A stretch of DNA of 44,177 nt from contig JALUUH010000067.1 in the NCBI GenBank assembly GCA_027021445.1, positions 1-44,177 of the forward strand. Direction: 5' to 3'. Positions 9,565-43,960 of the stretch are shown here, piece after piece; position 1 is the stretch's first letter, and each line of letters begins with the position of its first letter. The notes under the pieces are model-generated. The model ran no database searches. It had not been told where the DNA came from and worked only from the letters and a program-made list of their open reading frames with translations. This DNA comes from Gammaproteobacteria bacterium. GTDB taxonomy: Bacteria; Pseudomonadota; Gammaproteobacteria; S012-40. The translations under genes were made by a program, and so were the position numbers.

Positions 9565-9906
9565 ACGATTCTCCTATTCTACCGCATCCGCTCAACGGCT
9601 GAAAAAATCGTATGAGAAACAATATTTATAAGAAATACCCTTGCCAGGCAAGGCCTTTTCCGCGGATGGGATACGCACAAGGAGCGTAGGCATATAGTGC
9701 GTTTATTTTAAGTCCTTGTCAATATCGTATATCTTTTTAAAGATGTTCCCGCTAAGTGCGGAATGGGTCACTGTTTTTCCGTTCCATGGGCCATCCCTGG
9801 CCCGTCCCGCGTCCATCCCTGGCGCTAGTCACTGCAAAACAGTGACCCATTCCTTTGTGAATCTATTAGTGTGAGCTACTGATCTTTTCAGTTTTATGAC
9901 GGGTGC
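9565..9906. other. Gene-free stretch with two palindromic structures
   Basis: This 342-base gap lies between two minus-strand genes. It holds a short perfect palindrome CCTTGCC-A-GGCAAGG (9639-9653) and the nested inverted repeat at 9760-9853, annotated separately. I see no open frame with a convincing start and no clear T-tract terminator. Confidence 0.6.
9760..9853. repeat. Nested inverted-repeat element (18-bp perfect arms)
   Basis: The left arm GGAATGGGTCACTGTTTT (9760-9777) is the exact reverse complement of the right arm at 9836-9853, with 58 bases between. Inside is a second hairpin GGGCCA/TGGCCC (9788-9793 / 9798-9803) and a direct repeat CCATCCCTGG (9791-9800 and 9813-9822). The word GTCACTG at 9828-9834 can also pair with CAGTGAC at 9840-9846, so two folds compete for the right arm. 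This is the look of a dispersed palindromic element or a structured transcript end. Confidence 0.6.
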
Positions 9907-20437: not shown

Positions 20438-20890
20438 ATGGCCCATTCCGATAGATGTTTTTTGCTGATTGAGGATAACCCTAATGATGAAGAACTTACA
20501 TTACGCGCACTCAAAAAAAACAGTATTTTAAATGAAATTGTTATCGCACGAGATGGTGTTGAAGCACTAGACTATTTGTTTGGAATCGGAGCATACAGCG
20601 GACGGGATATTCAAGTTCAGCCCGAGTTAATACTTTTGGATCTCAAACTACCCAAAATTGACGGCCTTGAAGTATTACGGCAAATTCGATCAAATCCTGC
20701 GACCGCACTACAACCCGTCGTTATATTAACCACATCGAATGAACAAAAAGATATCGCAACGAGTTACCGCTTAGGCGCAAATAGTTATATTCAAAAACCT
20801 GTATTTTTTGAAAACTTTATAACCGCTGTTGGCCAGCTTGGGCTTTATTGGCTAGTATTAAACCAACCACCCAAAAATAGTGAAACCTAA
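20438..20890 (+). CDS. Rcp1-type single-domain response regulator
   Basis: The 150-residue protein is a lone receiver domain. It has the acidic pocket (IEDNPND), phospho-acceptor Asp68 in LLDLKLPK, a Thr pair in VVILTTS, and Lys120 in YIQKP. The long loop between strand 2 and strand 3 (LFGIGAYSGRD) is typical of the Rcp1/CheY-like group that partners phytochrome-type kinases. It starts 8 bases after the giant sensor gene, with a purine-rich site (AAGGAA) before the ATG, so it is almost certainly its direct phosphorylation partner. There is no output domain, so it probably acts as a phosphate shuttle or by binding another protein. Confidence 0.93.
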   Translation: MAHSDRCFLLIEDNPNDEELTLRALKKNSILNEIVIARDGVEALDYLFGIGAYSGRDIQVQPELILLDLKLPKIDGLEVLRQIRSNPATALQPVVILTTSNEQKDIATSYRLGANSYIQKPVFFENFITAVGQLGLYWLVLNQPPKNSET

Positions 20891-20891
20891 T

Positions 20892-22655
20892 ATGCAGAGT
20901 AATACCTTTTCAAGGATTATAAATTCTTCGTACATCGAACCGATTAAATCGTTCGAAGATAAATTAATAAATATTTTAATTATTGAAGATTCAGAAAATG
21001 ATACTTTATTAGTACTCCACGAATTAAAAAAAAATGGTTATACACCTATATCACATAGAGTGGAAACGGCTTCTTCTTTAAAGCTTTCTTTGTCTGAACA
21101 CCAATGGGATATCATTATTTCTGACCATAATATTCCAGGTTTTAATTCTGCATCCGCACTTTCAATTGTTAAATCTACGGATACAGACATACCATTTATC
21201 ATCGTCTCAGGTAGCATAGGAGAAGATCTCGCTGTCGCTGCAATGAAAGCCGGTGCGCACGATTATATCATGAAAGGAAACCTCACTCGATTAGTTCCAG
21301 CCATTGAAAGAGAAATACGCGAATACAAATCTCGCTGTGCTCGTCGTAGTGCTGAGGCTACTATACGCCATATGGCATTTCATGACGCGCTCACGGGCTT
21401 GTCCAATAGAACAGAATTTGAACGACGCTTACAATTAGCCATTGACAACATTTATAATGATAAAAACAAACATGCACTGCTTTATATTGATCTTGATCAA
21501 TTCAAAATAATTAATGATACCTGCGGTCACATAGCAGGTGACGAGTTACTTAGGCAATTAGTCGTTATTCTGGAGCAAATAATACGTGGAAGTGATACGC
21601 TCGCGCGCCTTGGGGGTGATGAGTTTGGTGTATTATTGGAAAGTTGTCCATTAGATCGAGCAATGTTAATCGCAGAAAATTTGCTCAATTCAATTAGAAA
21701 TTTTCGCTTTAGCTGGAATGAAAAAACATTTGTGGTTGGCGCAAGTATTGGTCTGGTGATGATATCCACCACTGAATCGACCATCACAGAAATACTCAGT
21801 GCAGCTGATATGGCCTGTTATACGGCAAAAGACTTAGGCCGAAATCAAGTTCATATCTATCGTGAAGATGATATTGAGCAGATGCAGCGTCGCGGTGACA
21901 TGCAGTGGGTAACACGAATTCAGCACGCATTAGATAATAATCGCCTACAACTTTATAAACAGCGTATATCATCGTTAAAAACCACAAATACATCCCAAGA
22001 ACACTACGAATGTTTGTTACGCCTAGAAGAAATTGATGGCACCATCAATTTGCCCGGATCTTTTATACCTGCAGCAGAACGTTATAACTTGATGCCTACC
22101 ATCGATAGGTGGGTAATTAACAATATATTTTCGCATCTAATGCAAACTCATGATTACAATGCCGGGCCTATTTCTAATAGTATATGTTTTATTAATTTGT
22201 CCGGAGCTTCACTCAGTGATAAAAACATCTTCTCACTTATTCATGATTTACTACAAGAAAGCAAGCTGCCGCCGAGCATGTTCTGTTTTGAGATTACTGA
22301 AACTTTTGCAATCTCAAATCTGTCAGTAGCCATCGACTTTATTAAAGAAATCAGAGCTGAAGGATGCAGTTTTGCACTCGACGATTTTGGATCCGGGTTT
22401 AGTTCTTTTTCTTACCTGCAAACTATTCCATTAGATTATTTAAAAATAGACGGTTCATTTATTCGTGATATGTTAACTGATCCGATTAATTCGGCAATCG
22501 TAGAGTCTATCAATCGTATTGGACATGTTGCGGGATTGAAAACGATCGCTGAGTTTGTTGAGTCAAAAAATACTTTAGTTTCGCTACAAAAAATAGGAAT
22601 TGATTATGCGCAAGGATACGCCATCCATCCGCCTGCACCTATCAAGTACCACTAG
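20892..22655 (+). CDS. Receiver-GGDEF-EAL protein (c-di-GMP turnover)
   Basis: The 587-residue product has a receiver domain (about 25-140, Asp78 in ISDHNIPG). Next is a GGDEF domain with an intact active site (GGDEF 241-245) and an intact inhibitory site RGSD (232-235). Last is an EAL domain with Glu373 in ECLLRL, FEITET, DDFGSG (497-502), LKIDGSF and QGYAI. Both cyclase and phosphodiesterase residues look functional, so direction may depend on phosphorylation. ATG 20892 lies one base after the previous stop; GTG 20880, overlapping it, is the alternative. The stop codon TAG is the CTAG end of a small inserted element, and the protein ends soon after the last EAL motif. Confidence 0.92.
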   Translation: MQSNTFSRIINSSYIEPIKSFEDKLINILIIEDSENDTLLVLHELKKNGYTPISHRVETASSLKLSLSEHQWDIIISDHNIPGFNSASALSIVKSTDTDIPFIIVSGSIGEDLAVAAMKAGAHDYIMKGNLTRLVPAIEREIREYKSRCARRSAEATIRHMAFHDALTGLSNRTEFERRLQLAIDNIYNDKNKHALLYIDLDQFKIINDTCGHIAGDELLRQLVVILEQIIRGSDTLARLGGDEFGVLLESCPLDRAMLIAENLLNSIRNFRFSWNEKTFVVGASIGLVMISTTESTITEILSAADMACYTAKDLGRNQVHIYREDDIEQMQRRGDMQWVTRIQHALDNNRLQLYKQRISSLKTTNTSQEHYECLLRLEEIDGTINLPGSFIPAAERYNLMPTIDRWVINNIFSHLMQTHDYNAGPISNSICFINLSGASLSDKNIFSLIHDLLQESKLPPSMFCFEITETFAISNLSVAIDFIKEIRAEGCSFALDDFGSGFSSFSYLQTIPLDYLKIDGSFIRDMLTDPINSAIVESINRIGHVAGLKTIAEFVESKNTLVSLQKIGIDYAQGYAIHPPAPIKYH

Positions 22656-22818
22656 GAGCCTGTCCGAGAACAGACTGACCTACTGCGGCCAATCCATTGT
22701 GGCCATATTTCCCGATTAAATTCGTTAAAGATGCTCAATATTCGCCTCATTGAGTCGAAAAATCTGACTCAAAATGGTTTGCCCTCGCTACGATCGCTGT
22801 TCTCGGACAAGCTCCTAG
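22652..22818. mobile_element. MITE-like element, CTAG-ended family, 167 bp
   Basis: The ends are 22-bp inverted repeats (22652-22673 and 22797-22818) that match in 21 of 22 positions. They include CTAG followed by GAGCCTGTCCGAGAACAG after one G. CTAG is found at both ends, consistent with a 4-base target duplication. There is no open frame inside. The left end supplies the TAG stop of the GGDEF-EAL gene. A second copy is at 43382-43465; the first 41 bases agree in 37 positions. The ends and target suggest mobilisation by an IS5-like transposase, which is inference; no such gene is in the window. Confidence 0.8.
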
Positions 22819-25817: not shown

Positions 25818-25839
25818 CTAGGCGACTGTCCGAGAACTG
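25818..25839. repeat. Solo inverted-repeat end of the CTAG-ended element
   Basis: This segment matches the 22-base left end of the element at 22652 in 19 of 22 positions, including CTAGG and CTGTCCGAGAAC. No partner end is found. It lies 3 bases from the stop codon of the SH3 gene. Confidence 0.5.
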
Positions 25840-25842
25840 CAT

Positions 25843-27162
25843 TCAACTCGCCAATTTAAAAGAATTTCGCTTCTTTGATATAAGCCCTTGGGCGACTTTG
25901 ATCCGTATCGTCTCGGCGCGTTTTTGCGAATGCGTCATGCTTGTTACACTTCGAAGCTGCAGATACTTATCAATTAAAACCGCCTCCTCCGTATCTCCCC
26001 ATGATTGTGGGTTATCGATTGGCAATTGATTTTTCAGCGATTCAACAGCTTGGGCGAGAATTTTGGGAACATGCCCAGGGCGATTAACATGTTGATCTAA
26101 TAACAAGGCAACACCGTACTCAGAACTCACATAATCTGCAATGTAGAAATTTCCTATTTTTCGATTATCTTGCTGGTAAAAAACAGCAATACGATCGATG
26201 GCATGCAGCGTTTCAATTTCGCGCACATTATTATCAAAACCCGCAGACCAGAAACGATAAGCCCACGCTAAAGTTCGTAGCTTATTTTTATTGTCTTTAT
26301 TGTTCAACAATACACCATTAAGATCAAAATAGCCGCGCATAGCGACACCTTTTCGATTCGTTATCTTCGCGATAGAAAGGCCATATTGCGCAAAGTACTC
26401 TTGGTAAGTCTCAGGATATGTTTTCTGTAATCGATCAAGCAAAGCAGGTAATTCCCCAGCAGCTGTTGTCGCCCCACATGTCCACTGAAATATACCGAAA
26501 GAAAGAAAAGAATTATCCCAAGTATTTATCGCTTCATATTTTCCTTCATTTTCTGATGCAGCTATCATCACGTTTAGTGATGATTTCAATTTAACAGGGA
26601 AACGAGATTGGTTGCTTTCTATATAATCTTTTATACTTGTTTCACCATAATTAAATATTCCCTTTTTATGCTTAGTACCAAACTTCGTGCCATCGGTTGC
26701 GATAGCGGCTTTATCTTGAAAATAAAAACGTCCCTCAGATTGGCGATTTTTTGTATTGTTCTCATTGATATATTTTTTACTCACGTAACCGACTAAATCA
26801 TTGATGGTAACTTTTAACCAATCATCAGTTTGATCAATAATTTCTACCACGCTATCCTTTGGAATAACTTGTAATATTTCACCACTAGGAGAGGCGCGAA
26901 GATTGAGGCGTGAGGCGGAGACCTTTCCGGTCTTCTTGGTTTGTTTTGGAACTTCCTGGTCAGACATAAGCTTAATATATTGCACCGCAACATAACCGGG
27001 TTTGCCTTCTGTTACTACTTGAAGCCAGTCACCTGTGCGTGCAAGAATATCAACACGAGTAAACTTCGGTAAAACCTTTACCACATCTCCACCTGGGGTT
27101 CTTCGCAAATTCAAAAAATCAACAGCGACTTTACCGGAAGCATAAACAGTATCCATTGGCAT
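25843..27162 (-). CDS. Two-SH3-domain protein with a possible lysozyme-like C-terminal domain
   Basis: The 439-residue product has two bacterial SH3 domains, each with the LNLR motif and a GDWLQV or DDWLKV core (about 9-65 and 78-133). A linker and a C-terminal domain (about 170-380) follow. That domain contains ENEGKYEAINTWD (204-216) and SFGIFQWTCG (221-230). This arrangement, an acidic residue before a Gly-rich Gln-Trp segment, resembles lysozyme-like peptidoglycan or glycan hydrolases; Glu204 or Glu206 would be the catalytic candidate. No signal peptide is visible. ATG 27162 has a good site (GGAG). It might be a spanin-free lysin, a secreted effector or a wall enzyme exported unconventionally. 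The hydrolase call is tentative. Confidence 0.7.
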   Translation of the reverse strand: MPMDTVYASGKVAVDFLNLRRTPGGDVVKVLPKFTRVDILARTGDWLQVVTEGKPGYVAVQYIKLMSDQEVPKQTKKTGKVSASRLNLRASPSGEILQVIPKDSVVEIIDQTDDWLKVTINDLVGYVSKKYINENNTKNRQSEGRFYFQDKAAIATDGTKFGTKHKKGIFNYGETSIKDYIESNQSRFPVKLKSSLNVMIAASENEGKYEAINTWDNSFLSFGIFQWTCGATTAAGELPALLDRLQKTYPETYQEYFAQYGLSIAKITNRKGVAMRGYFDLNGVLLNNKDNKNKLRTLAWAYRFWSAGFDNNVREIETLHAIDRIAVFYQQDNRKIGNFYIADYVSSEYGVALLLDQHVNRPGHVPKILAQAVESLKNQLPIDNPQSWGDTEEAVLIDKYLQLRSVTSMTHSQKRAETIRIKVAQGLISKKRNSFKLAS

Positions 27163-43381: not shown

Positions 43382-43465
43382 CTAGGAGCTTGTCTGAGAA
43401 CAAACTGACCTACTGCGACCAAAACCAACGTGCGTGACGTTCACTGTTCTCGGACAGGCTCCTAG
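43382..43465. mobile_element. MITE-like element, CTAG-ended family, 84-bp internally deleted copy
   Basis: The ends are at 43382-43402 and 43444-43465; the right end matches that of the 22652 copy in 21 of 22 bases. The first 41 bases (43382-43422) agree with that copy in 37 positions, then about 83 internal bases are missing. CTAG is at both ends. The right end supplies the TAG stop of the minus-strand gene. No open frame is inside. Confidence 0.78.
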
Positions 43466-43758
43466 CGCGCACTATATGAAATAATAACCGGGTTAGGATT
43501 GTTCAACGCTCGTTTGCCCTTTTTGCTATTCATTCTCACCATTTCTAGACTCTCGCATTTAGGGCACTTAACAGAGTTAAAGCGCGCAATATGATAGATA
43601 GTCCAAGCCAATGGAACAAGTAACAAGGGCAAGAATTGAGACAATGCTGTTAAAAAAATAAAATAAAGCCACATTCCCACGTCAACTGCAAAGCTTGATT
43701 TCAGCTGGGGAATAGGTCTTCCCACATAACTGCATTCAGTACAGACTTTGTTTTTCAT
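43462..43758 (-). CDS. Small membrane protein with a split Cys-Cys (zinc-ribbon-like) pair
   Basis: The 98-residue product starts at ATG 43758, chosen because GGAGG lies about 6-7 bases upstream; the longer frame from 43848 has no such site. It has CTEC near the N-terminus, a hydrophobic stretch (about 22-55, one or two membrane helices), and CPKC near the C-terminus, followed by a basic tail. The two Cys pairs could form one zinc ribbon if both ends are on the same side. I know no named family. The stop is the CTAG of the adjacent small element. Confidence 0.75.
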   Translation of the reverse strand: MKNKVCTECSYVGRPIPQLKSSFAVDVGMWLYFIFLTALSQFLPLLLVPLAWTIYHIARFNSVKCPKCESLEMVRMNSKKGKRALNNPNPVIISYSAR

Positions 43759-43960
43759 CACACACCTCCAATATATTCTCAGGTGAAATAAAAAAATAGT
43801 TAACTCTATAATATAACTGTAGTCCTTAATTTGAGTTTTTAACAGCATTATCGGACTATAAATACGATATTATTTAAAAAAATTTCTGCAACTTAAACAC
43901 TAACACCCAGGCTCAGCTAACATTCATTTAAACTCAAATTAAAAACCCTTTTGTCGCTTC
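43759..43960. other. Upstream region of the zinc-ribbon-like gene; otherwise empty
   Basis: This AT-rich stretch holds the promoter area of the minus-strand gene and no convincing open frame or hairpin. A TATAATATAACT-like stretch at about 43808-43819 might contain a -10 box on either strand; it is too loose to assign. Confidence 0.4.

Follow-up and report, generated by a model that had tools for sequence, protein, structure and literature searches.

How can a mobile element lie exactly on the stop codon of a gene and leave the encoded protein unaltered? This question is raised by the contig analysed here (44,177 nucleotides from a gammaproteobacterium, hereafter the window), in which two copies of a short element, both starting and finishing with CTAG, share the TAG of one end with the stop codon of the adjacent gene. 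An earlier note on this DNA had proposed that insertion into CTAG with duplication of these four bases leaves the stop and the protein unchanged, so that TAG stops preceded by C may act as safe sites, and had kept as an alternative that the element itself created the stops.

Two copies of one element at two stop codons

Copy 1 (22652-22818; no strand is assigned to either copy or to the CTAGs) is complete and consists of 167 bp, a 159-bp element with CTAG on each side. The left CTAG (22652-22655) is a copy of the target, as read from the sequence and from the duplication seen at paralogous sites (see later in the text), and the right one (22815-22818) is the second target copy. The TAG at 22653-22655, preceded by C, is the in-frame stop of a forward-strand gene for a receiver-GGDEF-EAL protein (20880-22655), whose EAL domain is complete (236/236); this C-TAG stop is the insertion site of the copy. 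An inverted repeat search delimited the left terminal inverted repeat, GAGCCTGTCCGAGAACAG (22656-22673, plus strand), and the right one (22797-22814, minus strand); with CTAG included, the arms of this repeat (I9) are 22 nt long and 95% complementary. Copy 1 as a whole is an imperfect long palindrome (DNA fold z-score -7.4), and its termini are also present on IS1182-family elements. A search for terminator and promoter patterns at copy 1 returned none.

Copy 2 (43382-43465) is a short but complete copy (84 bp, the two CTAGs included) that has lost internal sequence and which folds end to end (z-score -4.9). Its right CTAG occupies 43462-43465, and positions 43462-43464, read on the complementary strand, form the in-frame TAG stop, again with C before it, of a minus-strand gene (43462-43848) encoding a zinc-ribbon-like membrane protein of 128 amino acids. 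A 66%-identical relative of this protein, in genome G005, ends one residue later. Neither copy (167 and 84 bp) contains a plausible gene. The sequence thus confirms the two complete CTAG-to-CTAG copies reported before, as members of one family of miniature inverted-repeat elements (MITEs), and the coincidence of one end with the stop of the neighbouring gene holds in frame for both.

Only two C-TAG gene stops were found in the window, and the copies occupy both of them, the zinc-ribbon open reading frame having been added to this count by hand after the simple gene caller overlooked it. The terminal 21-mer of the element occurs five times in the window with at most three mismatches and in none of 100 shuffles. 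One 21-mer match is a degenerate solo family end (25818-25838, plus strand), which is intergenic and close to a gene stop at 25843. The window also carries, between genes, a 34-nt inverted repeat with 79% complementarity and a 26-nt loop (9760-9853).

A repeat family with IS1182 ends

The genome to which the window belongs (G000, a 2.65-Mb metagenome-assembled genome, 67% complete) contains 148 matches to the family end at three mismatches or fewer, against 0 for the reversed control pattern, and more than 100 copies of the non-coding element, which were studied in 60 stretches (1.07 Mb, including the window). A standard copy is a 159-bp element that reaches 167 bp once its two CTAGs are counted; shorter forms (50, 59, 62, 77-87 and 130 bp) and longer ones (208 and 219 bp) are also present in this genome. 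A 30-bp palindrome, CTAGGAGnCTGTCCGAGAACAGnCTCCTAG, barely more than the two ends fused, was observed as well, in about 15 copies (for example L031:6840-6869, L033:2920-2949, L053:7734-7763, L066:3770-3799 and L072:11095-11124); none was seen in the relative G088, and one close match was found in the loci of mixed taxa. They may be deletion remnants or a mini-element.

Among 143 other genomes of the class, 12 carry family ends, which were also detected in named genomes of Gamma-, Beta- (Nitrosomonas) and Zetaproteobacteria and of Desulfobacterota, and on one contig filed as Verrucomicrobia. Copies of 165-169 bp occur in the own genome, G088, Nitrosomonas, Mariprofundaceae and a plasmid of Pseudomonas MPC6, the last with 77% identity across the full length. 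In most other taxa the interior of full-length copies is 49-86% identical to the window copy, which indicates that this is largely one family; in Desulfocapsa the ends are common to the family and the interior hardly is (0.29-0.38). The median nearest-neighbour identity of the copies in G088 is 0.97, pointing to recent copies. Spread by viruses was rejected, because a 22-base end search gave 0 hits in 2.9 million viral contigs and no phage record carried the family. No Rfam model matched at its gathering cut-off, the best weak match having E=0.22.

Both window copies are very probably non-autonomous MITEs of the IS1182 family that insert at CTAG with a 4-bp duplication. At four loci a transposase gene lies between identical family ends: two identical 1847-bp autonomous copies in Desulfosediminicola flagellatus, one 1752-bp copy in Marinobacterium profundum and an element in the relative G121 (L283), all with the same ends as the MITE. 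Their transposases are 502-516 amino acids long, and those of D. flagellatus and G121 score 383.8 and 384.2 bits, respectively, against the IS1182 model NF033551 (cut-off 270). The terminal inverted repeats of the MITE are thus common to these autonomous elements (L189, L219, L221 and L283) and to ISMno8, and D. flagellatus contains the insertion sequence together with MITE-like ends in one genome. A search with PF13751 alone missed the parent transposase. No IS1182 transposase was found in G000 (67% complete), and no intact one in G088, where the copies look recent. An IS5/IS4-type parent was rejected, since no PF01609 match in G000, G088 or G086 is enclosed by family ends; a partial transposase found close to a MITE in C28 (L037) was likewise set aside, as no pair of family ends flanks it.

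Of nine annotated plasmid IS1182 elements, ISMno8, ISKpn6, ISAzo1 and a P. putida element start and finish exactly at CTAG. In a P. aeruginosa element CTAG lies slightly inward of the computed ends, and the remaining four are bounded by other sequences. The ISMno8 terminus, CTAGGAGCCTGTCCGAG, is nearly that of the MITE. Like the MITE, ISMno8, ISKpn6 and ISAzo1 are CTAG-ended, their CTAG being followed by GAGCCTGTCCGAG, GAGCCTGCGCGG and CAGCGTGTCGGAC, respectively; however, these are 1.5-kb elements encoding a transposase, whereas the MITE is non-coding. ISKpn6 adjoins blaKPC in L357, a Klebsiella oxytoca plasmid with blaKPC-3, and its ends are CTAGGAGCCTGCGCGG; the same CTAG insertion rule may therefore apply to it.

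From the shared ends we infer mobilisation in trans: an IS1182-type DDE transposase, supplied from elsewhere, would recognise the terminal inverted repeats (GAGCCTGTCCGAGAA...) and insert the MITE into CTAG with a 4-bp target duplication, and would require no further target sequence or structure. The closest described relative is MITEPye1 of Paracoccus yeei, an intergenic 159-bp element with IS1182-like terminal repeats, 4-bp direct repeats and a long hairpin (PMC11578231). By description the likeness extends to the length (167 bp minus two CTAGs), the IS1182-like ends, the 4-bp repeats, the intergenic location and the hairpin. However, MITEPye1 is alphaproteobacterial with one to three copies per chromosome (PMC11578231), whereas the CTAG MITE exceeds 100 copies and is present in several phyla. 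A 4-bp target duplication has been reported for both ISPse1 and MITEPye1, and the short duplication expected of an IS1182-derived MITE was found here at paralogous empty sites, where CTAG is duplicated. MITEPsy1 of Pseudomonas syringae is comparable as a short MITE (100 bp) that inserts at CTAG (or YTAA) with a 4-bp duplication; its terminal repeat is GGAAGGTCTGAAAAAGCC, and its authors linked it to ISPsy2, listed as IS5? (PMC3189936). Membership in that group was rejected, as the terminal repeat differs and the transposase here is of the IS1182 type.

Target duplication at CTAG

The state of the target before insertion could be read in G088, where the CTAG MITE has inserted into another multicopy repeat, MITE-B. 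The latter (L311-L340) has the terminal inverted repeats AGGGATGTAGAA...TTCTACATCCCT, occurs in many places and carries CTAG at its palindromic centre. Its 17 empty copies in G088 have a single central CTAG, within ACCCTAT-CTAG-ATAGGGT or a variant. A small CTAG-flanked hairpin of 42 bp (hairpin H) has been taken up at this centre, and 13 MITE-B copies hold it between two CTAGs or between CTAG and TTAG. In L102 the centre reads CTAG-element-CTAG, and in L117 and L128 the element stands beside an intact hairpin H with one extra CTAG. The comparison of empty and filled sites therefore shows that insertion duplicates CTAG and removes nothing. The earlier note had suggested comparing empty sites in related strains; the sites compared here are paralogous repeat copies within G088, not orthologous strains. 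At the flanks of the MPC6 plasmid copy no empty site was found.

Furthermore, 20 back-to-back junctions between elements (10 in the own genome, 4 in G088 and 6 in the mixed loci) have exactly one CTAG in common, as would result from insertion of each element into the CTAG beside its neighbour. The proposed insertion into CTAG with its duplication is therefore borne out, and it follows that a C-TAG stop and its protein are unchanged on insertion. Outside CTAG the flanks have neither a consensus nor an excess of palindromes, and the search for an extended or palindromic target found none. Two further observations concern CTAG in these genomes. CTAG outside the elements is depleted, with observed/expected ratios of 0.46 in the own genome (L031-L090) and 0.22 in G088 (L101-L158). 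A CTAG-flanked terminus of the CTAGCAGGCTGTCGGACTT type, resembling the ISAzo1 ends, lies back to back with the MITE with one CTAG between them (L184:7845 onwards and L098:2980-3004).

The parentage raises the possibility that the element replaces a stem-loop, such as a terminator, without target duplication, as reported for IS1272, an IS1182-family element with inverted-repeat ends that replaces inverted repeats (PMC5678879). Hairpins in some flanks and the clustering of copies near gene 3' ends would fit such a process, and L102 could be a site where hairpin H was replaced. However, in L117 and L128 hairpin H is still present next to the element and one CTAG has been added, so that the removal of a target hairpin without duplication, as in IS1272, was rejected there, and at least three matched pairs were present at 0 of 71 insertion sites compared with 16 of 692 control CTAGs. 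Stem-loop replacement is thus very improbable. Even less can be said for palindromes of the REP/BIME kind moved by a tyrosine (HUH) transposase of the RAYT type, a reading that we regard as having almost no chance of being correct. The ~30-bp palindromic forms, the high copy number and the intergenic location recall such repeats, but a REP bears its GTAG or CGTC tag on just one side (PMC3733652), whereas the CTAG MITE has symmetric terminal repeats, CTAG at both ends, a 4-bp duplication and relatives in which IS1182-type DDE transposases lie between identical ends.

If CTAG were instead part of the element, the TAG would have arrived with it and the stops would be of its making, with the genes truncated or lengthened by the insertion. 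The case for this is RmlB (L062:11462-11628 and following), which stops in frame at TAG about 20 residues before close solved homologues and whose missing C-terminal part was sought downstream and is absent; at least one stop is thus not at a natural end. This site is a composite array of two family ends, where DNA may have been lost locally or the target may have been mutated. On the other side stands the target duplication at the paralogous sites and junctions: a duplicated CTAG keeps its upstream copy in place and is in frame only if the TAG was already in frame, and an in-frame C-TAG beside a copy should therefore, on the sequence comparison, predate the insertion. Moreover, most testable abutting proteins reach the last or next-to-last position of their family model, namely UvrA (942/943), AlgH (187/187), RsfS (99/99), MsbA (572/572), TrpE (454/455), SrkA (326/327) and EAL (236/236) in the own genome and LpoB (189/189) in G088, and the relative of the zinc-ribbon protein ends only one residue later. 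The ends at AlgH, TrpE and LpoB read TTAG, not CTAG. As judged from these matches, nearly all testable abutting genes appear complete, with the truncated RmlB as an exception, and the idea that the element made the stops is very improbable and largely excluded. By the preferred route, insertion with CTAG duplication, the stop would stay inside C-TAG and the protein would be unaltered.

Stop codons, gene ends and the hairpin

Whether C-TAG stops are preferred over other CTAGs was assessed with gene calls from a simple home-made caller based on codon usage, run on three sets: 1.07 Mb from the own genome, 0.41 Mb from G088 and 80 mixed-taxon loci. Insertions with intact CTAG fell at stops, between genes and in coding sequence in 13, 78 and 3 cases in the own genome (n=94), 8, 62 and 3 in G088 (n=73) and 8, 88 and 5 in the mixed loci (n=101), with solo ends counted as insertions. 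The corresponding background CTAGs, drawn from stretches chosen around elements, numbered 29, 421 and 1349, 9, 112 and 230, and 7, 162 and 164. Insertions at coding CTAGs are thus strongly depleted (odds ratios 0.011, 0.023 and 0.054 in the own genome, G088 and the mixed loci), whereas 8-14% of the insertions, depending on the set, are at C-TAG stops. This suggests that selection acts as a filter: CTAG insertions inside genes would be removed, survivors would lie between genes and about one surviving copy in ten would fall exactly on a C-TAG stop.

A true preference for C-TAG stops, favoured as a safe harbour by the transposase or by selection, is doubtful. Insertions are about twice as frequent at stops as at other non-coding CTAGs, a control of our own choice (odds ratios 2.4, 1.6 and 2.1 in the same order; pooled Mantel-Haenszel odds ratio 2.09, p=0.005). 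The share of element sides at C-TAG stops in the own genome is 0.124 against 0.033 in the background, and long open frames reaching an element end do so mostly in the TAG frame (14, 7 and 9 cases, against 4, 3 and 7 for the other two frames together); a few copies occupy the remaining reading frames at gene ends. However, significance is uneven between the sets (p=0.017, 0.43 and 0.17), the flanks lack a consensus beyond CTAG, and 228 of the 268 counted copies (~85%) lie between genes and not at stops. Insertions are also mildly overrepresented 1-60 bp downstream of genes, so that part of the excess at stops reflects a general tolerance of gene 3' ends. The location of most copies away from stop codons, named by the earlier note as a refuting outcome, thus refutes a strict target preference, and the notion of safe sites is supported in part only. 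The simplest account is CTAG targeting combined with purifying selection against coding insertions, stops being one tolerated kind of site.

The element is also structured throughout. The whole of it forms one hairpin (z-scores -7.4 as DNA and -7.5 as RNA), and when 21 copies from different taxa are aligned, both partners have changed in 31 of the 57 pairs. There are 139 double-change cells, whereas shuffles give 40.8 (sd 5.4) and slid controls no more than 40; the shuffle counts are not probabilities, because this alignment also served to derive the structure and tree effects are included. Pairing is kept in 93% of cells, and in interior helices 4 and 5, where every pair varies, in 89-95%. 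The covariation extends over the full-length hairpin and spans Gamma-, Beta- and Zetaproteobacteria. It possibly reflects selection for structure, in transposition or in a transcript, or else template switching, in which one arm is copied from the other. More speculatively, and in our view rather unlikely, the MITE is more than a passenger: the 159-nt hairpin, and not only the terminal repeats, would be held by compensatory changes and, from its position at stop codons or shortly behind them, serve host genes as a transcribed 3'-end module, which insertion at CTAG makes harmless.

Altogether, these results explain how a transposon can occupy stop codons exactly and without damage, and they link a repeat that is abundant in environmental proteobacteria, and apparently new to the literature, with one defined family of transposases and a precise target of 4 bp. 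The sequences show CTAG duplication in this branch of IS1182, in contrast to the stem-loop replacement by IS1272, and ISKpn6, which lies next to blaKPC on plasmids, has ends of the same kind as the MITE. The covarying hairpin, found in several phyla, makes a case for asking why a non-coding element keeps its structure.
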